From positions 1-25,967 of the IMG/VR virus record IMGVR_UViG_3300005253_000604: a stretch of DNA of 25,967 bases; one strand, 5' to 3'. The notes under the pieces are model-generated. The model saw nothing but the letters and a program-made list of their open reading frames with translations, did not search any database and had not been told where the DNA came from. Positions 3,507-24,032 of this stretch are shown piece after piece; the stretch's first letter is position 1, and the number at the start of each line of letters is the position of its first letter. Position numbers and translations under genes: made by a program. This DNA is from a virus.

Positions 3507-3629
3507 TTGGACGTTCCTTTCAGTGTAGTCCTTGGTTCCAGCACCCCGGTAATGATGGGGTCATTTCTACCTTAGCCTTAAGACAATTCCTGTCAGTCTA
3601 GTCCTAAGAGCTTGAGGTTCTTCACTATC

Positions 3630-3658
3630 ATTATAGCATGGCTACTAGCTTCTGTCAA
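3630..3658 (-). promoter_or_regulatory. Consensus sigma70 promoter for scaffold-capsid genes
   Basis: On the minus strand TTGACA (3658-3653) is followed by a 17-base spacer ending in TGC and then TATAAT (3635-3630): a perfect -35 and an extended -10. Transcription should begin near 3623, about 117 bases before the scaffold ATG. One base upstream of the -35 box ends a 42-bp inverted-end module (3660-3701), so the promoter is probably regulated through it. Confidence 0.9.
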
Positions 3659-3659
3659 G

Positions 3660-3701
3660 TGACTATTCACTGTTTATATATGAGATTACAGCTATTAGTC
3701 A
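3660..3701 (-). repeat. 42-bp inverted-end control module, copy A
   Basis: Read on the minus strand, the element begins TGACTAA, contains GTAAT, ATATATAA and AGTGAATAG, and ends TAGTCA, one base before the -35 box of the scaffold promoter. It matches copy C (14097-14138) in length (42 bp), end sequences, internal blocks and position relative to a TTGACA box. Likely a binding site for a phage or host regulator. Confidence 0.7.
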
Positions 3702-3707
3702 CCGGGT

Positions 3708-3748
3708 TGACTAAAGAGAGTAATACTTATATAATGAGTGTTTAGTCA
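3708..3748 (+). repeat. 41-bp inverted-end control module, copy B
   Basis: TGACTAAA at 3708-3715 and TTTAGTCA at 3741-3748 are perfect inverted ends. With one preceding base its left part, TTGACTAAAGAGAGTAAT, is identical over 18 bases to copy C. It lies six bases from copy A, in tandem but on the opposite strand, and overlaps the TAA stop codon of the giant virion gene. Its TTGACT and a TATAAT 17 bases later also form a sigma70-like promoter pointing rightward, antisense to that gene. Confidence 0.7.
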
Positions 3749-6700
3749 TCCCCTCCCTCTCCACTACTAAGCACTAATACAGGAGCGGAGTCATCCACCT
3801 TTGGAAGTTCCTGGTCACTACCTGGCCGGTACCTCTGCATTAGTATCTCATACCGTCTCTGTCCCTCATCGGTTCGGAATGAGTCGGTGACCTGCCAGAA
3901 TGCTAGCCATGCGTCTATGTCAGGGGAGTAGAAGCGGAGGTTCTGACCTGCCAGTTTAATGTCAGCTTGGTACCTGCCTATGAGTGAACGACCATCTAGC
4001 TCTATAGCCTCAAGCCGGTCACGCTCTAGGGGACTGTCAGATGCTAGCCACCGTCGGATTATTAGTTGTGCATCAGGAGCAAAGCGTTCTATAGTAAGGT
4101 CACGCCTGTTGAAGTACGGTCGGAGATACTGCACATAGCTCCAGCGGTGTAGCTTCTCCAGTTCGGACTCATATTGACGGATCTGGTCCTCTAGCTCATC
4201 TCTACGTTCACCAGCAGCTTGTAGCAGTATTTCACGCTGGATATAGAAGGTATCAAAATCAGGACCAAGGGTACCAGTCTCAGAGTCGAACACCTCCTGT
4301 AGCTCAATGTCATAGTACATACGGAGTAGCTCTACCATAGGATGCTCTGTAGGTAGAGGCTGACCGGTACGCTGGTAATACTCTACTACTTCCTCATGGG
4401 TAACAGGGATGTCCTTATACCGGTCCCGCTCACGTAAAGCGTCAAAGCCGGACTGGTAATCTGCACCTAGTCCGGAGTGTAGCTTTATCCAATTCCTTGC
4501 TGTAATACTCCCAGGGTGGTCACACTGGGTAGCGCCTGCGAATCCAAACTGACAATCCATTTCCTCTTGCTTGGCAGTTAGACCTAGCCTTAAGGAGTCT
4601 ATATCATCCCAGAACTCATTACGTCGAGCACGGAACTGTTGTTCAGCAGCACCGAACAGGACATTGGTAAATCCTGAGAAGCGTTCTAAGGACTCGGTGG
4701 CACTGAGTAGGTCACGTACTTCCGGTGTAGGTGGGATAATATCCTGCCAGCGTATACCCCAATTACGCATGTCACGGAGTTGTTCTGTGGTAAAGCCAGT
4801 GTACTCGGACACAATGATGTCATACTCTGCTCTGGCCTCGGTCAGTTCTTCGGGCCGGAATCGGAATAGTCCAGTCTGGTCTAGGAGTATGAAGGTAGGT
4901 GACATTTGACCAGTAGCACGGTCCCATAGCTCTTGTTCAAAGGGGTCCAGTGGACTACCTGCCAAGGTCTTATTTAGTAGGTCAGCGCCACTGATTACCT
5001 CACCTGTGTCTGGGTCCTTCTCACCTATCTGGCTAACCTTCATAGCTATCATGTAGGAGCGGAAGCGTTCGGGTATAAATACATTAGCGAGACGCTTGGA
5101 AGCCTCCATCATAGTCTTGTTACCTATAAGCTCTGCAAAGGCTTGGAAGCCCTGGATGGGAGCCTTCATCCATACTGGTACTAGTTCTCCTAGCTGGTTG
5201 AAAGCTGGACCCTTACCCGTGCCAAAGAGTAGGTTGCCAATGGTGACATGTGCTCCTGGGTAGAAGCCGAATCTACCGGCCATATCTAGTACCTGTTGAC
5301 CTTTAGAGAAGGTGTCATAGAACTCAGGATAGTCACGGATAAGTAGTCGTCTCAGACCACCCATGAGGATGGTTCCACGTAGAGGGTTAATCTCTAGGCT
5401 GGTGAAGGGGACATGTATGTAGTTATCACCACCTGTAGCTTCGTTGTATCTACCTAAGCCAGTGATGAGTCCTGGTGTACGCATAAATTGACGTGGGAGG
5501 TACCATAGCCTATGCCACTCATATACCCAGAATGGCATCTGAGAGCGGAAGAACTTGTCTAGGTAGTTGAGGTCCACATAGTCAGGGAACATACGGTAGA
5601 ACTCAGTGGTGGCAGTGTCTAGAGCTTCACCTTTAGCCTGTAGCCAGGGAGCACCACCATACCCCTCTATGCGTCCTAGCCCATCTGCCATATCATCAGC
5701 CCACCGCTGGAAGGCTGTCCTAGCCTCAGCGGATAGCTCTGCACCTTTGGATTCAAACCTCACACCACGCACCAGGTCCTCTACCTGCATTAGTGTGGGA
5801 GATATACGGGATACGTTCTCAGGGTTGAGTCGGAACTCCCGCATGATGTCATCCCAGACTTCACCGACAGCTTCCTTAGTCCAGCCTAGAGCGGCTAGGT
5901 CTTGGCCTGGTTCTAAGTTAATGACAGCACGGTTGAGTAGCTCCTGAGTGAACTCATCCTTGCCCATGATTGCTTGTAGGTCTGAGAGCATAGTCATGGA
6001 GCTCACGTCATCCGGACGGATGTTATACATCAAGGCTACATCGACCCGTGATATGGTTCGACCAGCTACATCAGGGACAGCATTCTTAGCTTGCTGGCCT
6101 ATCCTAGCTTCAAGGGTATAGACTTCCCTAACTAGAGCCTCCTTAGCTATGGCTATATCACGGAAGGGCTGTCCCATCTGCTCCTTAGCCTTTAGCCATT
6201 GTTCATTAGTTTTAGGTCTGGCTCCCTTTGGAGCACTCTTACCAAAGATACCCTCGGCTATATCCCTACGACGAGAGTAAGCACTAGCTTCTAGGGTCTT
6301 GAGTGCCTTGTAACGATTCATAAGTAGGCTAACATCACCACTACGGTCGCCAACTGCTCCTATGTGACCTTGTAGTGATTCAATGTATCGGTCAATAGCA
6401 TGTCCAGCACGGTTACCGAATACATCGGAGCTTCCACGCCATACGTCCCAGATAGCGTCATTGTCACTTGCTCGGACTACCTTTTCACTGGCTTCTCTAG
6501 CTATACCATACTGATGCTCCAGAACTCCACCATAACCACGACTCATACCTTGGAGAGTCATCAGGCGTTTGGAGAAGTCTTCCCAGTTATTGATAGGAGC
6601 AGTAAGTATCTCCTCTGCCATCTCCTCAAAGTGAACTGAAAAGAACTCAGGTGAGCGTAGGTGAGTATCCCATATAAGGTCTACTACTTCCTGGCCTACC

Positions 6701-9700
6701 TCATCGGTATTGGTAAAGAGTCTACCGGACTTAGCCTGAGTTAGGATAAAGTCACCTACATGACTATCTATTAGGTCATAGTCACCTAGCATCTTCTCTA
6801 TGTTAAGGGTGCGAAGTCTCTCAGCAGTAGCCTCTCCTGGCATACCTCTAATGGCATCCGGGCCACGTAGCAAGTTAGCCTCGGTCGCGTCTTGTGCCCA
6901 AGGTCTAAGGTCTTTAGGTAGAAACCGGAAGTCCATACCGGTAGCCCTTTGCACTTTGTCGATTTCATCCCATACCTGAGGTAGTAACCTCTTTAGCTCG
7001 CGGAGTCCTAGCTGGTGTTGTATTAGTACCTGGTCAGCAGCCTGGATACGGATAGCTAGCTCTTCACGGAACATCCTACTGACCCACTGTGGAGCTAGGA
7101 ACTTCTCGACTCCTTTACGAGCCTGTTGAACGGTGGCATAGCTCTCGCCCCATACAAGACCACGGCCTCCACCTAGGAGTACCTCTGGCCTTGTACCTAA
7201 TGAGTCAGCCCAGGAATTAAGAATCATCTGGGAACGGTTGCCACGGTAGAATGGATTGATACCTGCTAAGGATGCTTTACCTTTAGTCTCGGCTATATTC
7301 CACAGGTGGTACATGCCAAAGAGGAGGTAGGAACGTGCTATTGGTCTAATTACCCACCTCTCGACTGAGCCGGACCATACTGCTCCTATGCCTTCTGGGA
7401 CCTTCTGTAGTGGAATGGATAGTATACCTAACCGTTCAGCTTGGCCAGCAGCTAGGGACTGGTGGTTACTTACAGTTAGCTTCTCGGAGAACTGTGCAAT
7501 ACTACTAATGATACCCTCTAAGGAGTCACCTTGGATTAGTCTCTCAGCTTGTCGCTCACCAGTAGATATATAGTTATCCACTAAGGACTTGACTAGACGG
7601 AAGCCTTTACCGTCAGCGGCATCCTCTACGCCAAGGACGACCATAAGTTGTCGAGCTACCAGTCCGGCCTTCTTAGGATCCTCAGCAGCCATGACTAGTT
7701 GGGTTTCCAGGTCTAGCAGGATAGTCTTAGAAGCTAACAGGGTGTCCTTAGTAACTGTACCACCCACACGCTGGGACCAGCCTAGGACCGTATCTACATC
7801 TGGTACAGCCTGGGACTTAAGGGTCTTGGACACTTGTGTACCCAGGTCAGCTAAGCCAATACCCTCAGGGAAATCGGTACCCCTCTTAAGTGCCTGACCC
7901 AAGGATTCAGTAGCTTGGGAAGCTGTAAGCCTACCATACTCGGTGTCAGGATTAGCTCGGGTCAAGAACCTAACAAGCAGACCAGATACACGCTCACCTT
8001 CAAGCAGACCTAGAGTAGCGGCAGGACGTTTGATTATACCTCTTAGTCCACTGCCTACTATCCTGAATGGAGCACTTGCAGCTTGTAGGTATCCATACTC
8101 AGCAGCAGCTACCATACGACTTAGAGGTCTACCTAGAATTGGTAGTGGCCTTACTAGCTTAGTAGCTATACCCCAGCCGATATATGTAGTAGGGTCAGCT
8201 AAGGTTTCAAATGCAAACTTAGCTACAGGGTGCCAGGTATTAGCGTTCCATGCGTCACCTGCTGCCTGCCAGAAGTTAGCATCCTCAAGGGCTATATTCA
8301 TGTCCCTCTCTATCTTCTGCTCGCCAGGGATAATCAGGGCAGGGTAGTAAAGTGCTTGTCCAGCTATAGGACGCACTACACCTTCAAAGTACTTCTCCAA
8401 TGCTTGGGAGGCAACTAGTATAGGCTGAACAGCTAAAGTCTTAAGGTAAGCCGCTGTACCGGGTTTAGGAAGAGACCAATCCCCTTGGCCTGTCCTCAAT
8501 GATGCTATGTTCTGTTCTAGCTCCTTATAGGCTGCTAGTCGGTCTTGTACCCTAGCTAGGGTATCTTCACGGTAAGCCTGAGCTTCTTCACTATCTAGTC
8601 CCTGTGCCATGAGGACATTACGTATCTCTTCACCAGTCTGTAACTCTTCTGGACCAGAAGGTCGGAAGCCTTTAAGGGATAGTCGGAGTTGTTCAGTACT
8701 CAGGAGATAGGAGGCCACCGGTCTAGCTCTACCCTGCTCAAATAGCTTCTCAGTTATGTCTGACTCCGAGAGGATAGCTATTTCCTCTGGAGTCATGGTA
8801 GAGAGTAGGTCTATCTGTTCCTCTACCTGCCGTCTAATCTCAGCTAGCACAGGGTCCATCATCTGCTGCTGTATGGTAGAGTTACCATTTACTAGTTGGT
8901 CCAATGCAGCTTGTGCTTCAGCACGGACCTCAGGGTCAATCTCCTGTAGTATGTCAAACTGTAACTCAACTGCGGTAAAGAACCTAGCCAGGTCATTATG
9001 ACGTGCAAAGAGGTTATCCCGCTCCGCTCTGAGTAGCTCTAGCTCCTTACTAGCTTCCTCAGTTAATCCCGTTTGTACATCCACACCTGGACCAAACGGT
9101 AAAGCACTAAGGACAGCATTAGTAGCTGTGCCAAGGAAACCTATATCTATCAGACCAAAGGGACTTATAATCTCAGACGGAGCGGGTACGTCCTTAAGGA
9201 GAATACTTATCTCCAGATCTATAGATTCCAGTCTAGAGGAGTTAAAATTATTCTCACGTTCAAAGGGTCTTAGTAGGTCTAAGAACCCGGGGAAAGGCTC
9301 CTGAGGAGTCCGGTCAGGAGGCTGACCGAATACCTGCTCGGATATCTGCTTTAACCGCTGTCTCTGTTGGAACCCAAACTGTTGGAAGAACTCTAAGGGT
9401 CGAGTTTCCTGTGCAGCAGCAGGGAGGGTAGGCTGTCCGGGTCTAGGAGCTAAGGTGCCACCACCTAGAATATTGGCTAGGTAGGTAGCATTGTCTCTAC
9501 CTATACGGTCAGCTTCCTGAGGGAAGAACTCGGACGCAGCGGCAAATATGGAGCCTTCCCAGTCTCCCCCACCTAGTTCCATAGCCCTGTTCAGGATTCC
9601 AGGGCCAGCATGGTAAGCAGTAAGCGCCTTACGGATGTCTCCTCCATAGATGCGGAGGTGTCCTGCGACTAGATTAGCAGCGTATCTAAGGGAAGCATCA

Positions 9701-9885
9701 GGATCCCACGGGTCTACCCCTGGATGGTATCGCGGTATAATCTGTGCTATACCCTGAGCGCCAGCAGAGGAACCCAGGTCTGTCCTAAAGCCACTCTCCT
9801 GGTTTATCTGCGCTACAAAGATGTCAGGGTCGATGCCGGCTTGAGTAGCATAGGTACGTGCTAGGGACTCATAATGTGAAGGCAT
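3742..9885 (-). CDS. Giant virion ejection/polyvalent protein with N-terminal transglycosylase
   Basis: A 2047-residue protein, the largest of the window. Residues 1-115 form a soluble-lytic-transglycosylase domain: the catalytic Glu is E30 in INQESGF, followed by AQGIAQI (43-49) and AYHAGPG (90-96). The rest is mostly helical: long charged helices around 200-470, Gly/Pro-rich hydrophobic helices around 530-620 (ADPTTYIGWGIATKL), and a conserved-looking aromatic stretch near 1440-1475 (MPFWVYEWHRLWYLPRQF). Known analogues are internal ejection proteins such as T7 gp16 and the phage large polyvalent proteins, which enter the cell with DNA; the enzyme locally opens peptidoglycan. It lies between portal and scaffold, the usual place of a MuF-type head protein, and is TAATG-coupled to the portal. 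A tape-measure role is less likely because no tail genes flank it. Confidence 0.85.
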   Translation of the reverse strand: MPSHYESLARTYATQAGIDPDIFVAQINQESGFRTDLGSSAGAQGIAQIIPRYHPGVDPWDPDASLRYAANLVAGHLRIYGGDIRKALTAYHAGPGILNRAMELGGGDWEGSIFAAASEFFPQEADRIGRDNATYLANILGGGTLAPRPGQPTLPAAAQETRPLEFFQQFGFQQRQRLKQISEQVFGQPPDRTPQEPFPGFLDLLRPFERENNFNSSRLESIDLEISILLKDVPAPSEIISPFGLIDIGFLGTATNAVLSALPFGPGVDVQTGLTEEASKELELLRAERDNLFARHNDLARFFTAVELQFDILQEIDPEVRAEAQAALDQLVNGNSTIQQQMMDPVLAEIRRQVEEQIDLLSTMTPEEIAILSESDITEKLFEQGRARPVASYLLSTEQLRLSLKGFRPSGPEELQTGEEIRNVLMAQGLDSEEAQAYREDTLARVQDRLAAYKELEQNIASLRTGQGDWSLPKPGTAAYLKTLAVQPILVASQALEKYFEGVVRPIAGQALYYPALIIPGEQKIERDMNIALEDANFWQAAGDAWNANTWHPVAKFAFETLADPTTYIGWGIATKLVRPLPILGRPLSRMVAAAEYGYLQAASAPFRIVGSGLRGIIKRPAATLGLLEGERVSGLLVRFLTRANPDTEYGRLTASQATESLGQALKRGTDFPEGIGLADLGTQVSKTLKSQAVPDVDTVLGWSQRVGGTVTKDTLLASKTILLDLETQLVMAAEDPKKAGLVARQLMVVLGVEDAADGKGFRLVKSLVDNYISTGERQAERLIQGDSLEGIISSIAQFSEKLTVSNHQSLAAGQAERLGILSIPLQKVPEGIGAVWSGSVERWVIRPIARSYLLFGMYHLWNIAETKGKASLAGINPFYRGNRSQMILNSWADSLGTRPEVLLGGGRGLVWGESYATVQQARKGVEKFLAPQWVSRMFREELAIRIQAADQVLIQHQLGLRELKRLLPQVWDEIDKVQRATGMDFRFLPKDLRPWAQDATEANLLRGPDAIRGMPGEATAERLRTLNIEKMLGDYDLIDSHVGDFILTQAKSGRLFTNTDEVGQEVVDLIWDTHLRSPEFFSVHFEEMAEEILTAPINNWEDFSKRLMTLQGMSRGYGGVLEHQYGIAREASEKVVRASDNDAIWDVWRGSSDVFGNRAGHAIDRYIESLQGHIGAVGDRSGDVSLLMNRYKALKTLEASAYSRRRDIAEGIFGKSAPKGARPKTNEQWLKAKEQMGQPFRDIAIAKEALVREVYTLEARIGQQAKNAVPDVAGRTISRVDVALMYNIRPDDVSSMTMLSDLQAIMGKDEFTQELLNRAVINLEPGQDLAALGWTKEAVGEVWDDIMREFRLNPENVSRISPTLMQVEDLVRGVRFESKGAELSAEARTAFQRWADDMADGLGRIEGYGGAPWLQAKGEALDTATTEFYRMFPDYVDLNYLDKFFRSQMPFWVYEWHRLWYLPRQFMRTPGLITGLGRYNEATGGDNYIHVPFTSLEINPLRGTILMGGLRRLLIRDYPEFYDTFSKGQQVLDMAGRFGFYPGAHVTIGNLLFGTGKGPAFNQLGELVPVWMKAPIQGFQAFAELIGNKTMMEASKRLANVFIPERFRSYMIAMKVSQIGEKDPDTGEVISGADLLNKTLAGSPLDPFEQELWDRATGQMSPTFILLDQTGLFRFRPEELTEARAEYDIIVSEYTGFTTEQLRDMRNWGIRWQDIIPPTPEVRDLLSATESLERFSGFTNVLFGAAEQQFRARRNEFWDDIDSLRLGLTAKQEEMDCQFGFAGATQCDHPGSITARNWIKLHSGLGADYQSGFDALRERDRYKDIPVTHEEVVEYYQRTGQPLPTEHPMVELLRMYYDIELQEVFDSETGTLGPDFDTFYIQREILLQAAGERRDELEDQIRQYESELEKLHRWSYVQYLRPYFNRRDLTIERFAPDAQLIIRRWLASDSPLERDRLEAIELDGRSLIGRYQADIKLAGQNLRFYSPDIDAWLAFWQVTDSFRTDEGQRRYEILMQRYRPGSDQELPKVDDSAPVLVLSSGEGGDD

Positions 9886-11606
9886 TACTGCTGACCCTCC
9901 GGACTTATGTTCATCAAGGCCATCATAGCTTGGGTAGCGGGGTCTAGGCCACTGGCAGGTACTTCTCCTGGTGGCCTCTGACCATTGGTAGGTGGACCTT
10001 GCTGTTGTTGTTGACCCATAATCTGACCTATGAGGGCTAGACCGGCTTGGTCTAGTAGGTCTGCATCCTCATTGTTACCAGACTTACGGAGTAGTTGGGA
10101 CTCCTCCCTGAGTGCGGATATGAGGGTAAGCATCGCGAATACCGGAGAGGTCTGTGCATCATCTGACCGTGCCTGTGCCTGCTCCTGCTGTGGGTCATCT
10201 ATCTCAGGGAAGAATAGGTCAAGAGCGGTAGTGTTAGATATCCTGGCTCCAGGTGCTATCATACGGGTGACTGTAGCTCGTTGGATAAGGTCACCTGGGA
10301 TACTGATGGGGTAGCTAATATCGAATAGTATGTCATCTACTGCTAGGTCTCCAGGGACAATAAGGGACTCGGACTCAAAGACACCGCTGGTTACACCCTT
10401 GACCCAGGTGTTGTCAATGTCAGTGAGTAGCCCCATGGTGGTCTTGTGGTATAGACCTAATACCTGTACCGCGGCGGCTGCGACCTGAGACATGAGGCCA
10501 AGTGGTATGTTCTGTACCTGACCAGACAGAGCGTTAGGAAGGGCTCCTCTCTGTATCATCTGTTCGTAGGAACCTATAAGACTGGTTAGCTCTACAGGGA
10601 TACCAGGCATTGAAATGGTACCTAGGTCATCGCCCTCACCCATACGGAATATGGCACCTCGCTTCTCAAGGTCCTCAGTGGAGAGGATTGTATTGGCACC
10701 TCTGGACTTCTCCCAGTATTTAGGCTGTGCTGTGTCACGAAGGATTTGCTGTAGGAAGGTGACTGACCGGTTGTAGTTCTTATATATACCCTCGTTGGTA
10801 GCCAGGATGGACTGACCTACACTCTCACGCCAGTCTACACGGGAACCACCAGCTCGCTGACCTGTAGCTCTCCGCTTGGCGTTGATAGGACCATCATCAG
10901 GTAGCCCACCTGCTGGACCTACAAAGATGGGTATCTCCTCAAATGGTTCCTTCCTTGCAGGCTTAACTAGCTGGTTCTCGATGACGGTAGCATTGATTAC
11001 TCCCTCATCAGTCTGCTCCCACAGGTCGTATACGGTCAAATCCTTGTTGTGCAGGACCGATGGGAAAGGCCAGTTATGACGTTGGAATAGTCTCCGAGCC
11101 TGAGTGGCACCTATACCGAACACATGGGCCACACTGGTTAGTCCTTCGCCATCCCAGTCAGGGTAGACCTCAATGGGGTTCCAAGTCTCAGCTATGAGTT
11201 TGTCCTTGGTAGCCATACAGAGGACGGCATACCAGCCTGTGGCTATGAGGAGTCCGACTGTATACTCCATCCAGGACTTACGGCCACGACGGCGGTACTC
11301 ACGGTCTAGCCCTCTCCAGGTACTAGTGACTGACCGCTCTATGGTAGATGCCCAGGCTATGGATTCTTTATCTAGCCCTTGGACTGGTATCCGGTGTGGT
11401 ATGTTAGGCGCTAGTAGGTGGAGCGCAGTGTTATAGAAGGTGCGTGGGTCATTGACCACAACGCTCTCCATATGCTGCTGCTCCAGCTCGTCGACCAGGG
11501 AGAGGGTGTCATACCATTGGGCTATCTTACGGTCACGCTTAGCCCATAGCTGTTTGAGTTGGGTACAACGTGCGATTACCTGACTATGCTTGGTATAGAC
11601 TGCCAT
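9885..11606 (-). CDS. Portal protein
   Basis: A 573-residue protein directly after the large terminase. The N-terminal part has a helical wing region (HSQVIARCTQLKQLWAKRDR), then a strand-rich core (WNPIEVYPDWDGEGLTSVAH). The central part has NEGIYKNYNRSVTFLQQI and a helix with PNALSGQVQNIPLGLMSQVA, typical of portal stems. The C-terminus is a Gln/Pro-rich barrel tail (GQIMGQQQQQGPP...). Portal proteins form the dodecameric ring through which DNA is packaged and ejected, docking the terminase. Size and gene order agree. AGGAGG site before the ATG; the stop overlaps the start of the giant virion gene. Confidence 0.85.
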   Translation of the reverse strand: MAVYTKHSQVIARCTQLKQLWAKRDRKIAQWYDTLSLVDELEQQHMESVVVNDPRTFYNTALHLLAPNIPHRIPVQGLDKESIAWASTIERSVTSTWRGLDREYRRRGRKSWMEYTVGLLIATGWYAVLCMATKDKLIAETWNPIEVYPDWDGEGLTSVAHVFGIGATQARRLFQRHNWPFPSVLHNKDLTVYDLWEQTDEGVINATVIENQLVKPARKEPFEEIPIFVGPAGGLPDDGPINAKRRATGQRAGGSRVDWRESVGQSILATNEGIYKNYNRSVTFLQQILRDTAQPKYWEKSRGANTILSTEDLEKRGAIFRMGEGDDLGTISMPGIPVELTSLIGSYEQMIQRGALPNALSGQVQNIPLGLMSQVAAAAVQVLGLYHKTTMGLLTDIDNTWVKGVTSGVFESESLIVPGDLAVDDILFDISYPISIPGDLIQRATVTRMIAPGARISNTTALDLFFPEIDDPQQEQAQARSDDAQTSPVFAMLTLISALREESQLLRKSGNNEDADLLDQAGLALIGQIMGQQQQQGPPTNGQRPPGEVPASGLDPATQAMMALMNISPEGQQ

Positions 11607-11615
11607 GGTTGCCTC

Positions 11616-13118
11616 CTACCACTTAAAACCGTAGGTGCCAATTAGTCCTTTATCTGCTGTGCCTACACCCTGATAGGTTGAGGTCCCTATCATAGCAGCC
11701 ATAGCGAGGTCATCCTCACCGGTGAATGTGATGTCGGTGCCATACCAGCGGACTGACCTTAGTTGGCGTACAAGGTCTAGGTCATAGGTGACCAACTGGT
11801 ATATTTCCTTACTCATTTGGGCTATCATGTAAGGTTTAGAGGTACGGGTGGTTAGCCATCCGAACTTGGTACCTAGCTTTCCTGTAGCAAGGTCACTACG
11901 CTTACCAAGGTTAGGATAGTCCATCATCTCATTTATAACAGCCTGACCTGGTCCATTGAACTCTACCTGTACCTCGGCCATGTTGTAGTGTTCACCTAGA
12001 CGTTTGAGCTTCCAAGCAAAAGGAGCAGGCTCTAGGAGTCCCCAATAGGTGGCTACATGGGTAAGCTTCTCACCTAATGCCCATACTATAGCTGCGGCCT
12101 TGTCATGCTCACCTACTGTCGGGTCAGCAGATATGAGGTATATCCCCTTTTCTGTGGGAGGCTCCCATATCCTAGCTCCCTCCCAGGTCTCAGGTGCCGG
12201 GTAGCATCCATGTGCTAGTTCATCCAGTCGGGAGTTGTCAAAGACCGCTTCGCCGGATGTGAGGAAGCACTTGTCAGGGTCCTCTGGGAACTCCTGGTAG
12301 AAGCTCAGGCCACGGTCAGCACGCTTCCTTCTACGCCACCGTATCTGGTCCTCATCCAAGTCAAATAGCTCTGCTACATCCTGCTCCTCAGGTGTATAGC
12401 TCAGGTCACCTCGGTCATTAGGCAGAGCCAGGTGACTACCCCTTGGGATTGTGTACTCTGGGTCAAGAGGCCAGGGAAGGAACAGGAAGTCATAGGACGA
12501 CATGTCACCTCTGGATTCCTGTATCTTGGTATGGAAGTAGTCACCTTCGCCCCATGGTGTGGACTCAATAGCGATAAACCCGGAGTCAAGAGGTACTGCT
12601 TCCTCTGCTGCCGACATGGCCCCTTCCGGGTCAGGCCAACGGGATATCTCGGTGGCAAGGAAGTTGTGCACCGTGTCTCCTCTGATTAGTAGGTTTGACC
12701 TAGCTGTAGTAATGAACATAGTAGAGTTGATGCTAGGCCAGGTAATTTCATAGCTGGAGTTGTGGTGCATAGGAGGCTTTAGTTCATCCGGTATGGAGTG
12801 ATATAAGGAGTGTGCTTTGGTAAGTGCCCTTTGGGTAGCAAACTCATTCTCCGATGCAATGACGGATACCGTACCTGGCACTGTGAGACAATCTGCGAGG
12901 AACTTAGCGATGTATAATGTGGTCGAACCCATCTGACGCGCTTTGAGGACAAGTAGCCTACCTCCTGGTCTGATGTGAGGCCACGCGAGGGACTGTGACC
13001 GGTTGAGTGTAAATGGTACTTCCTCCCTCCGCTTGTTCTTAACCTTCATTAAGGTCTCAATATACCGTTTCCGGTCGGTAATGAGATCCCTTAAAGCGGT
13101 ATCTACCTCAGATACCAT
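11616..13118 (-). CDS. terL: Terminase large subunit (packaging ATPase/nuclease)
   Basis: A 500-residue protein. The ATPase half shows a Walker A-like KARQMGST (59-66), a Walker B position HNFLATEIS (151-159; E157 is the likely catalytic Glu, while the usual Asp before it is Thr), and coupling motif IESTPWG (184-190). The nuclease half has an RNase H-like set of acids: D332 (ISADPTVG), E386 (VQVEFNG) and D469/D470 (GEDDLAMA). The family pumps DNA into the prohead through the portal and cuts the concatemer. It starts just downstream of a small membrane protein gene, with an AGGGGA ribosome site, and is followed by the portal gene. Confidence 0.93.
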   Translation of the reverse strand: MVSEVDTALRDLITDRKRYIETLMKVKNKRREEVPFTLNRSQSLAWPHIRPGGRLLVLKARQMGSTTLYIAKFLADCLTVPGTVSVIASENEFATQRALTKAHSLYHSIPDELKPPMHHNSSYEITWPSINSTMFITTARSNLLIRGDTVHNFLATEISRWPDPEGAMSAAEEAVPLDSGFIAIESTPWGEGDYFHTKIQESRGDMSSYDFLFLPWPLDPEYTIPRGSHLALPNDRGDLSYTPEEQDVAELFDLDEDQIRWRRRKRADRGLSFYQEFPEDPDKCFLTSGEAVFDNSRLDELAHGCYPAPETWEGARIWEPPTEKGIYLISADPTVGEHDKAAAIVWALGEKLTHVATYWGLLEPAPFAWKLKRLGEHYNMAEVQVEFNGPGQAVINEMMDYPNLGKRSDLATGKLGTKFGWLTTRTSKPYMIAQMSKEIYQLVTYDLDLVRQLRSVRWYGTDITFTGEDDLAMAAMIGTSTYQGVGTADKGLIGTYGFKW

Positions 13119-13119
13119 T

Positions 13120-13302
13120 TTAGTCCCCTATCTTAGCCTCTATGCGTGTAAGGACTATAAGGATCTTATTCAGCTTCTCATCTAAGGTGGACATGTTAGG
13201 GTTACTGCTACCGTTACGTCGCAGCAGCACTCCTACAAGACCTATGAATCCTACTATAACTGACCCGGATATACCAAGCAGGACTAATAGAGAGTCTTCC
13301 AC
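13120..13302 (-). CDS. Small single-span membrane protein (60 aa)
   Basis: A GTG start is supported by AAGGAGG four bases upstream. Residues 4-27 (SLLVLLGISGSVIVGFIGLV...) form one transmembrane helix, followed by RRNGSSN and a short amphipathic C-terminal helix (STLDEKLNKILIVLTRIEAK). Such proteins can be holin-like or hold a partner at the membrane. Lying among packaging genes and away from the cell-wall hydrolases, a lysis role is not certain. The stop is one base from the start of the large terminase, so they are coupled. Confidence 0.7.
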   Translation of the reverse strand: MEDSLLVLLGISGSVIVGFIGLVGVLLRRNGSSNPNMSTLDEKLNKILIVLTRIEAKIGD

Positions 13303-13314
13303 TATGCCTCCTTA

Positions 13315-13494
13315 TTATCGCTTCTTAGGGAGTGCCCATGACGGTCTAGCTCTCCGGCGGACCCAACCTAGTATATGAGCCTTTTTGATGTTGCTCCTTA
13401 CAGCACTGAGTTGTCTGAGGGAGCCTACCCAGCTACGCCTCTTCGGACTCGGCTTCAATGATGTCTGGGTCCTCAGGCGTCCGCTCTGTGGCAA
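13315..13494 (-). CDS. Candidate basic protein overlapping terS (59 aa)
   Basis: The gap between the small terminase and the membrane protein is filled by an open frame that starts inside the small terminase gene. A TTG at 13494 has GGAGG six bases upstream. The 59-residue product is strongly basic (SLKPSPKRRSW near the start, GWVRRRARPSWALPKKR at the end) with almost no acidic residues. Its stop lies just before the AAGGAGG site of the next gene. The alternative is untranslated spacer; the rare start codon and out-of-frame overlap lower confidence. A nucleic-acid-binding role is only suggested by charge. Confidence 0.4.
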   Translation of the reverse strand: MPQSGRLRTQTSLKPSPKRRSWVGSLRQLSAVRSNIKKAHILGWVRRRARPSWALPKKR

Positions 13495-14059
13495 GTTTAA
13501 CCTCCGTCTCGGTTCTGGTGATGCTTAGTACGAAGTCCGCAAAGTTGATAGGACCATCAGCATTCGGGCCGACTGCACGGGTGACAGCAAGGAGATCCTG
13601 TGGGGAGTAGAGTGAGCGTATCTTCTGGAGTACTTTGAACTCCCTCTCGGTGAGTGCGTCTAGGTGGTGTACCGCCTTATAGAGTACTTTGAAGTCGGTC
13701 CGCATAGCCAGCCGCATGTTCCTTAGGAACTCTATACGGACCAAGTCCCCACCTACACTAGCCTGGAGTTCACTTAACCTATTGGTTTCAAAGTCAGCAA
13801 AGTCAGGGTCAGAGGCTCGCCACCTGGTAAGGGTTGAGTGATTGATATTTGCCAGGTAACATGCCTGTCTGATAGGGAAGCCAGTAGCTCTGTATCCCAG
13901 GTAGTCAGCTTTAGACTCTGCTGTCCGTGGTCCGCCCTTCATATGTGGGATACGACTTAGGAGAGCCTTCTGACCCGTCTCATCCGCCAAGTCTATCCCA
14001 TCCGGGTCAGGAACAGCGGGTGGTTCCTCACTAACTACTGGCAGTATCTCTTCAACCAT
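13433..14059 (-). CDS. terS: Terminase small subunit
   Basis: From the ATG at 14059 the product is 208 residues. Residues 58-80 form a helix-turn-helix (RATGFPIRQACYLANINHST then LTRWRASDPDF), the usual DNA-recognition unit of small terminases; the following region is helical, as needed for ring assembly, and the tail is acidic (IIEAESEEA). The family recognises the packaging site and hands DNA to TerL. A longer reading from 14107 is unlikely because the promoter (14066-14094) lies inside it; the TATAAT box ends six bases before the 14059 ATG, so the message appears leaderless. First gene of the leftward virion operon. Confidence 0.8.
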   Translation of the reverse strand: MVEEILPVVSEEPPAVPDPDGIDLADETGQKALLSRIPHMKGGPRTAESKADYLGYRATGFPIRQACYLANINHSTLTRWRASDPDFADFETNRLSELQASVGGDLVRIEFLRNMRLAMRTDFKVLYKAVHHLDALTEREFKVLQKIRSLYSPQDLLAVTRAVGPNADGPINFADFVLSITRTETEVKLATERTPEDPDIIEAESEEA

Positions 14060-14065
14060 ATTAAC

Positions 14066-14094
14066 ATTATAGCATACTATGTTAGGTTTGTCAA
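14066..14094 (-). promoter_or_regulatory. Consensus sigma70 promoter for packaging genes
   Basis: Minus-strand TTGACA (14094-14089), a 17-base spacer ending TGC, and TATAAT (14071-14066). The predicted start point coincides with the first base of the terS ATG at 14059. Two bases upstream of the -35 box ends control module copy C. Confidence 0.9.
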
Positions 14095-14096
14095 GT

Positions 14097-14138
14097 TGAC
14101 TAATCACTAGTTATATATACCATTACTCTCTTTAGTCA
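14097..14138 (-). repeat. 42-bp inverted-end control module, copy C
   Basis: On the minus strand it begins TGACTAAAGAGAGTAAT, continues with ATATATAA and AGTGATTAG, and ends TTAGTCA, two bases before the -35 box of the terS promoter. The first 17 bases, plus one preceding T, are identical to copy B; length, ends and placement equal copy A. Likely regulator-binding site. Confidence 0.7.
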
Positions 14139-14166
14139 AGATAATGTGTACAAGCACTTTAGCCTA

Positions 14167-14195
14167 TTGACAAGATGTGACGAACATGCTATACT
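14167..14195 (+). promoter_or_regulatory. Rightward sigma70 promoter for early genes
   Basis: TTGACA (14167-14172), a 17-base spacer ending TGC, and TATACT (14190-14195). Expected start point is near 14202, leaving about 29 leader bases before the ATG at 14231. Control module copy D overlaps its -10 box and start point. Confidence 0.85.
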
Positions 14196-14218
14196 AATGT
14201 ATAAACAGTGATTAGACA
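14178..14218 (+). repeat. Diverged control module, copy D
   Basis: A 41-bp element with degenerate ends (TGACGAA ... TTAGACA). Its right part, TATAAACAGTGATTAGACA, differs from copy A at only two positions over 19 bases. It covers the -10 box and start point of the rightward promoter, where bound protein would be expected to block transcription, unlike copies A and C which lie upstream of -35 boxes. Confidence 0.5.
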
Positions 14219-14230
14219 CATGAGGCATCC

Positions 14231-14902
14231 ATGGTAAAGCACCTCGGCAGACTCAAGATTGTAACCAGACGTAAGGAAGGCCAGTGCAGGTACAAGTACT
14301 GTCCTAAGGACCGTAAGCTGAATCCGGGGGATAAGGTACTCATACTCACTAAGCTTGGGAAGATTGGGACTAGGACCACTATCTTCTACAAGGCTTACCA
14401 TCCAGATTGTTTCGGATTATGGGCACTATGGATGATTGACCAGACACCTATCAGTAAAGACGGTAGGAAGTCTATGGAGCTAGACTCCGATGCTGCTAAG
14501 GTCAGAGCTAATCTAGTGAGGGAGAGGGCAAGGATACTACGCGACATCAGGACTATAGAATCCGGTGATAGACTAGACCGACGTATAGCACGACTTACAG
14601 AGGTTGATAGACTCATAGGTGAGACTGGATACCCTGTACTGCATTATAAGGGAAGGAAGAGTGCGGTCCTGATTGAGTTTGAAAAGTTTATACAGGCTGT
14701 CAAGGACAGATACCTGTCTGAGCTGAGGGTTCCTAAGAAGGTCTTTGACCAGGCAAAGGAGATGGGCATGGAGGGCGAGTTCAGGGATGAAATGGACATA
14801 TGGCACAGAGAGGAGATAGTTAAGGTACAGAAACAGGCGCCACATATGGAAGACACGATGACAGACCAGGAGGACACCAATGGCCAAGACCAAGGTAAGT
14901 AA
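14231..14902 (+). CDS. Putative zinc-binding early protein (223 aa)
   Basis: First gene of the rightward arm, with a GAGG ribosome site five bases before the ATG. The N-terminus has a candidate zinc site: C19-x4-C24 and, after a strand-rich insert, H57-x2-C60. This C4C...H2C layout resembles treble-clef or PARP-type fingers; that assignment is tentative. Residues 85-135 form a long charged helix (AKVRANLVRERARILRDIRT), and the C-terminus is acidic and Gln/Asp-rich. As an early, first-transcribed gene behind an operator-like repeat it could be a DNA-binding regulator, but I recognise no named family. Its last 23 bases overlap the next gene. Confidence 0.75.
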   Translation: MVKHLGRLKIVTRRKEGQCRYKYCPKDRKLNPGDKVLILTKLGKIGTRTTIFYKAYHPDCFGLWALWMIDQTPISKDGRKSMELDSDAAKVRANLVRERARILRDIRTIESGDRLDRRIARLTEVDRLIGETGYPVLHYKGRKSAVLIEFEKFIQAVKDRYLSELRVPKKVFDQAKEMGMEGEFRDEMDIWHREEIVKVQKQAPHMEDTMTDQEDTNGQDQGK

Positions 14903-15445: not shown

Positions 15446-15789
15446 CTCCTTAGGTAGCCCCTTTTCCCCAGATTCATAATTTGCGATACCACCTTCCGGA
15501 GATGTTGGAGCCTGATAGGGTGCCTATACGTACTATCATATGTGTGTATGTAGGGATGTGTGTAGACGTGTGAATAGTTAGTAGCTGGCATGTATTGTGC
15601 ATTCCTTCACAATGTTATCATCCGTACATATGTCCTATCAGTTCACTTTCCTTAGCCTTTGAGTCTAGTATGGGGGTAGTCAAACGGATGTGCTAATGTA
15701 TTGTCCTACTCTTTGTGCTATCCTTCACAATCACAGCAGGCACAAGTATAGGCAGGCCGTAAGGGTAACCTGCCTATACAAGTTAGTGG
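15446..15789 (+). other. Non-coding gap between convergent genes
   Basis: No convincing gene on either strand. The stretch contains a TG-rich patch (about 15538-15572), two copies of an approximate direct repeat (ATGTATTGT at 15590 and 15696, each followed downstream by TCCTTCACAAT at 15603 and 15721), and a perfect 11-bp hairpin at its right end (15746-15779). It separates the rightward early genes from the minus-strand gene at 15790-16356. Confidence 0.6.
15746..15779. terminator. Hairpin between convergent genes, possible bidirectional terminator
   Basis: GTATAGGCAGG (15746-15756) pairs perfectly with CCTGCCTATAC (15769-15779) around a 12-base loop. It lies just beyond the stop of the minus-strand gene (15790) and downstream of the rightward early genes, the expected place for a terminator serving both. 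There is no T-tract on either side, so termination would have to be weak, factor-aided, or the hairpin acts as a 3'-end stabiliser. Confidence 0.5.
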
Positions 15790-16356
15790 CTAGGACGCTG
15801 GCGTCTTATCCCACTCTAGCTTCTTGGCGATGCGATCCGCCAAGTGTGTCAACCCGTGCTTGCTTGGCTCGGCAAGCGTAGCATCCCGTCGTTCATCGCC
15901 TACTTCGTCGGCACCGTGCTGCTCGACAACCTGGCGACTGTTCAGACCTTCCGGGCCGTAGACGTAGCGAGTACGTGAGCCGTTACCGCCACTCTTGACA
16001 ACTGTGCGCTTGCCGAGAGTGTTGACTACAACCTTGTCAGCCTCGACAGGCTCAGGCCCGACAGGCACCGTGATGGTCACATTGGCGATTTCGTGACGGC
16101 CCATGGTTGCCATGTCAAACTTGTGCACCAACGGCAGCACGGCGGCACGGATGCCCTCGTACACTGCCACCAGCTCGAATGTGTCTACATCCGACTGTGA
16201 CTTTGTAGCCGCACGCTCGGCCTTGGTGACCGTCGTTGCAGCCTTAACGATGTCAGCCGCCGAGCCGTCTTTCCTCAGCCCGGTAAACTCCTTGTTCGCA
16301 GCCTCAAATGCCGACTTGGCATCCTTGGCAATTACTTCTAGTTCTTGTCTCGTCAA
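15790..16356 (-). CDS. Moron-like hypothetical protein (188 aa)
   Basis: The only minus-strand gene within the rightward arm. The start is TTG at 16356 with AAGGAG six bases upstream. Residues 1-60 are an Ala/Lys-rich helix pair (ELEVIAKDAKSAFEAANKEF); residues 88-130 are beta-rich and include KSGGNGSRTRYVYGPEGLNS, followed by a His/Glu-rich helical tail. No family recognised. It is visibly richer in G and C and uses GCC, GGC and CGT-type codons where neighbours favour CTA, GGT and AGG, suggesting a different origin. It has its own consensus promoter and a hairpin after its stop, the build of a phage moron. Function unknown; expression apart from the main programme is likely. Confidence 0.75.
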   Translation of the reverse strand: MTRQELEVIAKDAKSAFEAANKEFTGLRKDGSAADIVKAATTVTKAERAATKSQSDVDTFELVAVYEGIRAAVLPLVHKFDMATMGRHEIANVTITVPVGPEPVEADKVVVNTLGKRTVVKSGGNGSRTRYVYGPEGLNSRQVVEQHGADEVGDERRDATLAEPSKHGLTHLADRIAKKLEWDKTPAS

Positions 16357-16416
16357 TGTTCGCTCCTTACTACTAAATGTATCGGCAGCCTAGGCAGCTA
16401 CCCCCTTACATTCATC

Positions 16417-16445
16417 ATAGTAGCACACTTCACATTAAATGTCAA
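16417..16445 (-). promoter_or_regulatory. Sigma70 promoter of the moron-like gene
   Basis: Minus-strand TTGACA (16445-16440), a 17-base spacer ending TGC, and TACTAT (16422-16417). Expected start near 16410, about 54 bases before the TTG start codon. A second TTGACA lies 14 bases further upstream but lacks a -10 partner. Confidence 0.8.
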
Positions 16446-16679
16446 GCACATTATGTCAAGTATCCATAAGTAGTTTTATTCACAATGATATGCAAGGTAA
16501 AGTTATCAATAGTCACATACGAACATGTGTGCGGTAGTGTGCAACTGCTAAAGGATGTATACAATATCACACATCACGGTAGTTGCACTGAATTGTGTAA
16601 GGGAGTATACCGTTACGGTAAGTCTACTTTACATGCTATAAACGTATTAAAGCACTGTACTTCACTTGACATAAAAGAC
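16446..16679. other. AT-rich non-coding region between divergent promoters
   Basis: Between the moron promoter and the next rightward promoter there is no convincing gene. It contains TTATTCACA at 16476-16484, which fits the DnaA-box form TTATnCACA, an inverted pair GTGCAACT / AGTTGCAC (about 16539 and 16582), and palindromic GTATAC words. One open frame (16485-16724) runs through it but lacks a ribosome site and runs over the promoter. A replication origin or regulatory region is possible but unproved. Confidence 0.4.
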
Positions 16680-16708
16680 TTGACAGTATCAAGCGGATGT
16701 GATATAAT
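16680..16708 (+). promoter_or_regulatory. Consensus sigma70 promoter for the main rightward operon
   Basis: TTGACA (16680-16685), a 17-base spacer ending TGA, and TATAAT (16703-16708): exact -35 and extended -10. Expected start near 16715. It should drive the dense gene run from 16847 onward. Confidence 0.9.
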
Positions 16709-16718
16709 AGATGTATAC

Positions 16719-16834
16719 GGTTAGACAAGAGCTAACCTTGAGAGGGGACAGCCTATGAGGGCCAGCGCACCTTAATGACGGATGCCAGCGCCCTGTACTC
16801 AAGCAACCTTACTAAAGAAACAACCTATTTTTAA
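16719..16834 (+). promoter_or_regulatory. Leader with 5' hairpin and two mini-ORFs
   Basis: GGTTAG (16719-16724) pairs with CTAACC (16732-16737) right at the 5' end of the predicted RNA. An AGGGGA site then precedes a 6-codon ORF (ATG 16755, MRASAP, TAA 16775), whose stop overlaps the ATG of a 19-codon ORF (16775-16834, MTDASALYSSNLTKETTYF). A second AGAGGGGACA copy then serves the gene at 16847. The word GCCAGCGC is directly repeated (16761 and 16784). This may be a translated regulatory leader or simply two very small genes. Confidence 0.5.
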
Positions 16835-16846
16835 GAGGGGACACAC

Positions 16847-18296: not shown

Positions 18297-18529
18297 TGAT
18301 GAACCATAACAATGGCAACGGTAGTCAGCCAGAGGTTGAGCCAGGTCTGATGTCACTCAATGAGGTGATAGGCATCCTCATCTTTGGCAAGGACTTAAGA
18401 CAGGTCAAGAGGGACAAGCAGTGCATGACCTGTCCGTGTGATGCTAACGAGTTCAAGGATGACATCAGCCGGAAGGAGTACCTTCAGTCCGGCATGTGCC
18501 AGCACTGTCAGGATAAGGTGTTCGGATGA
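18296..18529 (+). CDS. Putative zinc-finger protein (77 aa)
   Basis: TAATG-coupled. The N-terminal half is an Asn-rich then hydrophobic segment (LMSLNEVIGILIFGKDLRQV). The C-terminal half has a four-Cys arrangement: CMTC at about 43-46 and CQHC at about 69-72, separated by FKDDISRKEYLQSGM. The D-D-x-S-x-K-E-Y...SGxCQxCQD pattern recurs in uncharacterised small phage proteins in my recollection. A zinc ribbon fold is likely; partner unknown. Overlaps the next gene (ATGA). Confidence 0.7.
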   Translation: MMNHNNGNGSQPEVEPGLMSLNEVIGILIFGKDLRQVKRDKQCMTCPCDANEFKDDISRKEYLQSGMCQHCQDKVFG

Positions 18530-19878: not shown

Positions 19879-20052
19879 GTATGGTGTCAGTAGCATCCCA
19901 GCATCAGTGGCAAATGTCCCCGCCATTCGGTGACCAACCGCTACTGGCACCTTACCTGCTCTGTACCCCCGCGTATGAAGCAGAGTAGGAGCTAGGATAA
20001 GGTAGGCAGTTGAAAGGGCCAAGAGTTACGGGTTAGTTGGACCTATCCCCGT
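19877..20052 (+). ncRNA. Structured RNA / leader upstream of csrA
   Basis: Bases 19877-19894 pair with 19940-19957 over 18 positions, broken only by one T-T mismatch and one G-U. Inside are a hairpin 19906-19911 / 19922-19927 and a small stem CGGT/ACCG (19928-19940). A second hairpin (CTCTG 19959-19963 / CAGAG 19981-19985) follows, then a third (ACGGG 20028-20032 / CCCGT 20048-20052, with TAG/CTA inside) whose six-base loop is TTGGAC. GGA in a hairpin loop is the recognition form of CsrA. The roughly 170 bases lack a convincing gene and end about 70 bases before the csrA GTG. It may be a cis-regulatory leader or an independent sRNA. Confidence 0.6.
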
Positions 20053-20122
20053 GTCCATGCTCAACGGTGGTCCTCAGTACGTAAGTCCTACCACTAGCCT
20101 TAGTAGCATAAGGAGGGACCCG

Positions 20123-20281
20123 GTGCTAGTAGTAACTCGCAAGGAGGAGGAGTCTATCACTATTGAGGGTGGTATAGTAATCACGGTCTTTGACATAAGA
20201 ATGAACCGAGTTAAGTTAGGTATAGTGGCGCCTGGATTGAGGGTACTACGTACCGAGCTACTAGAGAGGAAGAAATCATGA
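20123..20281 (+). CDS. csrA: CsrA/RsmA-family RNA-binding translational regulator
   Basis: From a GTG at 20123 with AAGGAGG exactly six bases upstream the product is 52 residues: MLVVTRKEEESITIEGGIVI..., matching the CsrA pattern MLVLTRKxxESIxI. Key family features are present: T5-R6 at the N-terminus, RVKLGIVAP (29-37) and VLRTELL with R43 in the place of CsrA R44, the RNA-contacting residues. A longer reading from 20051 only adds unrelated residues and lacks a ribosome site. CsrA dimers bind GGA motifs in mRNA leaders and control translation or stability. The gene's own ribosome site and first codons are GGA-rich, so autoregulation is likely. Csr relatives on mobile elements are known; in a phage it could reprogram host mRNA or time phage genes. 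Length is slightly short (host CsrA about 61). Confidence 0.9.
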   Translation: MLVVTRKEEESITIEGGIVITVFDIRMNRVKLGIVAPGLRVLRTELLERKKS

Positions 20282-23768: not shown

Positions 23769-24032
23769 TTGGGTAGAGGTAAAGGTACCAGGGGTAAAGT
23801 AATGGATGCCATCCTTAAGCGCCGGCTCAAGGTAGTACCTCGCACCGACGAGCCAGTTGAGGTAAACCACAACAAGACCCTAGCTATGAGGCTGTTGGAG
23901 AACCAGTTTGGCCAGACTATAGAGTACCTACTAGATGAGGAACAAGGGTCACTCAAAGAGGTCGCCAAGACCTTAGGTATAGATGAAAGCACGGTCAGCA
24001 AGTGGAGGCTTAGGCTAGGTATGCGTACATGA
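23769..24032 (+). CDS. Helix-turn-helix DNA-binding protein (87 aa)
   Basis: The start is either TTG at 23769 or ATG at 23802. The N-terminus is basic (GRGKGTRGK, KRRLKVV). Residues 59-84 are a clear helix-turn-helix: QGSLKEVAKTLGIDESTVSK then WRLRLG, like sigma region 4, transposase or replication-initiator HTH units. Its stop overlaps the start of the RepA-like ATPase gene (ATGA), suggesting a joint role in replication start or in regulation of the replication genes. A 131-base gap before it holds only weak secondary structure and the 34-residue candidate ORF. Confidence 0.75.
   Translation: MGRGKGTRGKVMDAILKRRLKVVPRTDEPVEVNHNKTLAMRLLENQFGQTIEYLLDEEQGSLKEVAKTLGIDESTVSKWRLRLGMRT

Follow-up and report, generated by a model that had tools for sequence, protein, structure and literature searches.

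Activators that contact sigma classically bind at position −41.5, the site used by class II activators such as CRP and, at PRM, lambda CI. The late activators Ogr of phage P2 and Delta of phage P4 act through an upstream dyad at late promoters; the Ogr sites are centered near −55 and are shorter than the element described here. In Bacillus phage phi29, p4 represses early and activates late transcription through four inverted-repeat sites (consensus CTTTTT-15-AAAATG) grouped in two regions close to divergent early and late promoters of the host-sigma type; these sites are located between promoters A2c and A3, and the late promoter A3 has a poor −35 box (PMC3100819). The window analyzed here, a stretch of 25,967 nucleotides of viral DNA (IMGVR_UViG_3300005253_000604), likewise holds four inverted-repeat sites, divergent promoters, and virion genes on the opposite strand, and the p4 switch may be taken as its closest working analogue, with no membership of the p4 system claimed. 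However, the eight copies of the module present in this phage and in a relative have the ends YGACTAA/TAGTCR and a length of 41-43 bp, and by reading none of them follows the p4 consensus; moreover, the two pairs of sites are 10 kb apart, with one site lying on a −10 box and start point, and the late promoters are perfect whereas A3 has its poor −35 box, so that no late promoter with a poor −35 box in need of an activator was found here. Family scans of the candidate regulator genes gave no match to the p4 family. What both phages do have is one site that occurs at the late as well as the divergent promoters in a conserved register, as would suit the operator of an early/late regulator.

Module A (3660-3701, minus strand, 42 bp; TGACTAATAGCTGTAATCTCATATATAAACAGTGAATAGTCA, read in the common direction) points left, and module B (3708-3748, plus strand, 41 bp; TGACTAAAGAGAGTAATACTTATATAATGAGTGTTTAGTCA) points away from it across a gap of 6 nt; module C (14097-14138, minus strand, 42 bp; TGACTAAAGAGAGTAATGGTATATATAACTAGTGATTAGTCA) points left, and module D (14178-14218, plus strand, 41 bp; TGACGAACATGCTATACTAATGTATAAACAGTGATTAGACA) points right. 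The copies form two divergent pairs: A/B precedes the scaffold/capsid promoter, and C/D precedes the terminase promoter. A and C face the leftward virion promoters, and B and D face the opposite way. The initial annotation of the window had placed four copies at these positions, and all four were located. The shared letters that it listed hold less strictly: the ends TGACTAA/TTAGTCA become TGACGAA/TTAGACA in D, and one end of A reads TGACTAT; as for the internal blocks, GTAAT is present in A, B, and C and missing from D, AGTGA is present in A, C, and D and reads AGTGT in B, and TATATAA is replaced in D by GTATAAA. The module is directional, with a right arm (TATATAAnnAnTGAWTAGTCA) that is 21 bp in every copy and terminates in the 10-bp quasi-palindrome TGAWTAGTCA, and a left arm of 20-22 bp in which a lone YGACTAA half-site is followed by a variable stretch.

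The 18-mer TTGACTAAAGAGAGTAAT, reported earlier as a word common to two copies, does have exactly two occurrences in the window (3707-3724, plus strand, and 14122-14139, minus strand), which give B and C 18 identical bases; the chance expectation is 0.02 matches even when up to three mismatches are allowed. A matrix of the four copies scored them at 43.6-53.9 bits, compared to 8.1 bits for the next-best site in the window, and the copies still scored 31.1-39.6 bits under leave-one-out. No fifth copy was found in the window by this matrix scan, in agreement with the earlier statement that there was none elsewhere. Module B is not wholly intergenic, as its last 7 bp overlap the end of the gene for a 2047-aa virion protein (3742-9885, minus strand) and include the stop codon; the only domain recognized in this protein is a lytic transglycosylase (SLT) domain at the N terminus. 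A reading of the A-B junction as an RNA hairpin or terminator was rejected, there being none at C/D.

Promoters of the form TTGACA-16/18-TATAMT were observed four times in the window, where about zero would be expected. The scaffold/capsid operon promoter (3630-3658, minus strand; perfect TTGACA-17-TATAAT with TGC before the −10 box) has module A at −78 to −37, with the proximal 10-mer TGAATAGTCA centered at −41.5, and the terminase/portal operon promoter (14066-14094, minus strand; perfect TTGACA-17-TATAAT) has module C at −79 to −38. Between the module and the −35 box there is 1 nt at A and 2 nt at C, and the description of two copies lying one or two bases upstream of perfect TTGACA boxes was thus correct, as was that of a diverged copy over the −10 box and start point of the rightward promoter (14167-14195, plus strand; TTGACA-17-TATACT), since module D begins 5 nt past the −35 box of this promoter and extends from −24 to +17. 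The rightward promoter is that of the 14231-14880-15152 operon, whose three genes we infer to be early. The replication-operon promoter (16680-16708, plus strand) is perfect and module-free. Module B has no promoter of the D type on its own side. B itself, and perhaps other copies, could be read as a sigma-70 promoter (TTGACT-17-TATAAT, 11 of 12 in the promoter scan) that would make antisense RNA; however, neither the other copies nor the relative (GTGACT-17-TATATA) preserve the match, and the spacing of the two blocks shifts with the module length of 41-43 bp, which leaves this reading hardly credible.

The relative is a record of 40,262 bp (IMGVR_UViG_3300037247_000198, here L011) with the same gene order and orientation as the window; identity is 67% for terminase, 61% for portal, 55% for the 2047-aa protein, and 43% for scaffold. 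It too has four modules, each at the orthologous position and oriented as in the window: A at L011 18358-18400, with the junction GAATAGTCACTTGACA identical in both phages; B at 18311-18353, which scores highest of the relative's four; C at 7433-7475, more degenerate, upstream of the terminase promoter; and D at 7342-7384, in the same register, 5 nt past the −35 box and, taking the two phages together, over −24 to about +18. The matrix built from the window only gave 37.8, 30.3, and 26.7 bits and a weaker 11.0 bits in the relative, with the next-best site at 7.5 bits. By that matrix the 11.0-bit copy, at the C position, is inside the range of random maxima for 40 kb (7-21 bits), and it reached 24.8 bits when scored with a matrix of the remaining seven. 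Leave-one-out scores of the eight copies were 24.8-46.7 bits, those of B and C being raised by their mutual likeness; the rest of both genomes reached at most 8.0 bits.

Spacing was compared between the two phages as well. The proximal sites are centered at −41.5 (A) and −42.5 (C) in the window and at −41.5 and about −44.5 in the relative, and the A and B centers are 47.5 bp apart in the window and 47.0 bp apart in the relative, where the A-B gap is 4 nt. The C-D centers are separated by 80.5 and 91 bp respectively, a difference of about one turn that is suggestive of helical phasing and depends on the points measured. The weakest copy is D in the window and C in the relative, so that the order of quality is not alike. 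The replication promoter of the relative (TTGACA-17-TACAAT, minus strand near L011 4000), as read by eye, is also without the module. Scattering of the module inside genes, or its absence from the promoters of a close relative, had been named as grounds against the initial annotation; on inspection, the module stands at the same three promoters. These data confirm that the module is real, is shared at both virion control regions, and is kept in the nearest relative, and we put at about 0.85 the probability that a single regulator uses the copies as operators to control these three promoters.

A role for the copies as DNA-processing sites (inversion, packaging, replication, or partition) would fit the inverted 18-base identity between B and C and the position of one pair next to the terminase small-subunit gene. 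We regard this as quite improbable, because the register to the −35 and −10 boxes is fixed in two diverged phages, the relative keeps gene order and orientation, and neither an integrase (PF00589) nor a large serine recombinase (PF07508) was found in the window, the 40 kb relative, or a 45 kb relative, all of which may be fragments. DNA inversion between B and C was rejected on the gene order shared with the relative.

In the explanation that we favor, a regulator, proposed to be restricted to this phage lineage, would be made after infection and would bind each divergent pair cooperatively. From A and C, with the proximal half-sites at about −41.5 behind the −35 box, it would contact RNA polymerase, and this contact would raise the output of the virion promoters. 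Simultaneous occupation of D would cover −24 to +17, with the −10 box and start point, and would thereby hinder the rightward promoter and shut it off. B has no promoter to occlude, which would fit a pair working for its late promoter, with the divergent promoter superimposed on the distal member, D. As in class II systems, the quasi-palindrome proximal to the promoter is at −41.5 (A) or −42.5 (C); however, the module ends before an intact consensus −35 box, and a further half-site about 30 bp upstream and a second, divergent module are present. We infer activation of the virion promoters by the module, and the cooperativity, timing, and identity of the regulator belong to the model in the same way; the full version, in which late promoters are activated and the divergent one is repressed, has in our judgment somewhat less than an even chance. 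It would amount to a compact, testable control circuit.

Several observations weigh against that explanation. The virion promoters are perfect or near-perfect (TTGACA-17-TATAAT or TATACT) and have a TGn extension, and promoters of this extended −10 type normally need no activator, unlike typical activator-dependent ones. More distant relatives, in which terminase is 38-42% and capsid 42-57% identical where present, keep promoters at the same places, and the eight-copy matrix reaches no more than 7.9 bits there. Divergent promoter pairs before the terminase gene are module-free in the 45 kb relative and in a 21 kb relative, and promoters before the scaffold gene are module-free in three records; the contig of the 45 kb relative ends at the A/B region, and the module check in that relative covers the C/D region. 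The module is thus one lineage's overlay on an older promoter skeleton, and late expression across the family at large does not depend on it. In addition, copy quality is ordered differently in the two phages, and the module is carried by two genomes only. Of the early/late switch under one regulator that had been suggested initially, the shared element at the virion control regions therefore stands, but the activation finds no support in consensus promoters or in module-free relatives. The question raised is why fully consensus late promoters bear an elaborate, precisely placed operator that distant relatives lack.

The same strong-looking promoters and module-free relatives make repression of all three promoters a serious, if somewhat doubtful, rival. 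The module would then be purely a repressor operator, through which one protein lowers all three promoters, at D by covering it and at A/B and C/D by a clamp or loop; perfect promoters would need such a brake, and the module-free replication promoter would stay on. It is simplest to let one operator act with one sign; none of the three promoters departs far from consensus, distant relatives use promoters of this kind with no such site, and paired sites 10 kb apart suit looping. However, in a lytic phage a repressor made early would arrive after the virion promoters had fired; the integrase and recombinase searches found no lysogeny genes in the three records, which, for records that may be fragments, would favor a lytic program over a prophage repressor; and non-overlapping sites at −41.5 are more typical of activators.

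As for which protein would bind, the first gene behind D (14231-14902, plus strand) encodes a candidate of 223 aa that is 51% identical between the two module-bearing phages and to which a protein of the 45 kb relative is weakly related. Residues C19, C24, H57, and C60 are conserved, and the ligand pattern is kept in three proteins. In a model with pLDDT 71, residues 1-72 resemble PARP zinc fingers, a weak match (Foldseek probability up to 0.96 but E 0.15-0.3; VIA Z 5.4-6.4, middling, over about 60 residues). As with Ogr and Delta, an upstream dyad may be accompanied by a zinc-binding protein, although the putative ligands here (C-x4-C...H-x2-C) resemble those of PARP fingers and not those of Ogr. 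PARP fingers are known to recognize nicks and breaks, not specific sequences, and for this reason the 14231 product is a candidate only; that it is a sequence-specific regulator of the PARP zinc-finger type, autoregulated through D and working a paired-module switch at A/B and C/D on fully consensus late promoters, seems unlikely. If true, both the class of phage transcription regulator and the composite operator would be new. Small proteins of the same operon are also common to both module-bearing phages. The second candidate (23769-24032, plus strand; 87 aa, homeodomain-like HTH) is shared by these two phages and is also encoded by the 45 kb relative, where the module was not found. A search for a single-subunit RNA polymerase (PF00940) gave no match, and the control search was likewise silent.

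The binding protein might otherwise belong to the host, a further rival to be taken seriously. Phage use of the host regulator CtrA has been described (PMC9437464). A scarce host repressor would keep the perfect late promoters down until replication from the module-free 16680 promoter titrated it away; the element would then serve as a copy-number timer, and this reading would explain both an operator on consensus promoters and a replication promoter without one. A literature search with the module end sequences, however, matched no phage or bacterial operator, and we know of no host regulator with such a 42-bp asymmetric site; this, too, we consider unlikely.

Searches with the terminase, capsid, portal, and 14231 proteins returned one module-bearing relative only. 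An exact scan of viral_contigs for TAGTCA-N1-2-TTGACA-N17-TATAMT gave 47 stretches, and, the known relative aside, none had the module by the matrix or a relative of any window protein; scans of genome_contigs yielded no module-bearing relatives. The count of two carriers applies to the relatives searched, among which the short relatives L003 (terminase 77%) and L009 (61%) end before the module regions. The portal protein had no match among 50,697 phage records, and the sequences represent a phage clade without a close named relative.

Other features of these genomes were also recorded. In the 45 kb relative, each of the six perfect promoters (L013 10656, 10693, 13417, 13689, and 13788; L014 1857) ends in TGTGGTATAAT, conserved beyond the consensus. 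The predicted start of the terminase/portal promoter is at the terminase small-subunit ATG, which is 6 nt past the −10 box in three phages (window 14057-14071, minus strand; L011 7503-7517; L077), so that the mRNA is predicted to be leaderless. Positions 15446-15789 and 16357-16846 of the window contain no convincing gene; they flank an opposing gene (15790-16356) that has its own leftward promoter at 16445 and recurs in both relatives, and the predicted structure of its product is a poor model (pLDDT 56). The window encodes a CsrA homologue (20051-20281; Pfam E 2e-13), which was not found in the three relatives searched, though the 40 kb relative keeps two hairpins in the scaffold-gene 5′ leader (window 3509-3530 and 3582-3603, minus strand; L011 from 18462 and from 18542). 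The loop UANACUGANAGGAAY is common to both hairpins; the first has a stem whose sequence is not the same in the two phages, with pairing kept, the second holds the ribosome-binding site, and the GGA in the loop suggests translational control of the CsrA type.
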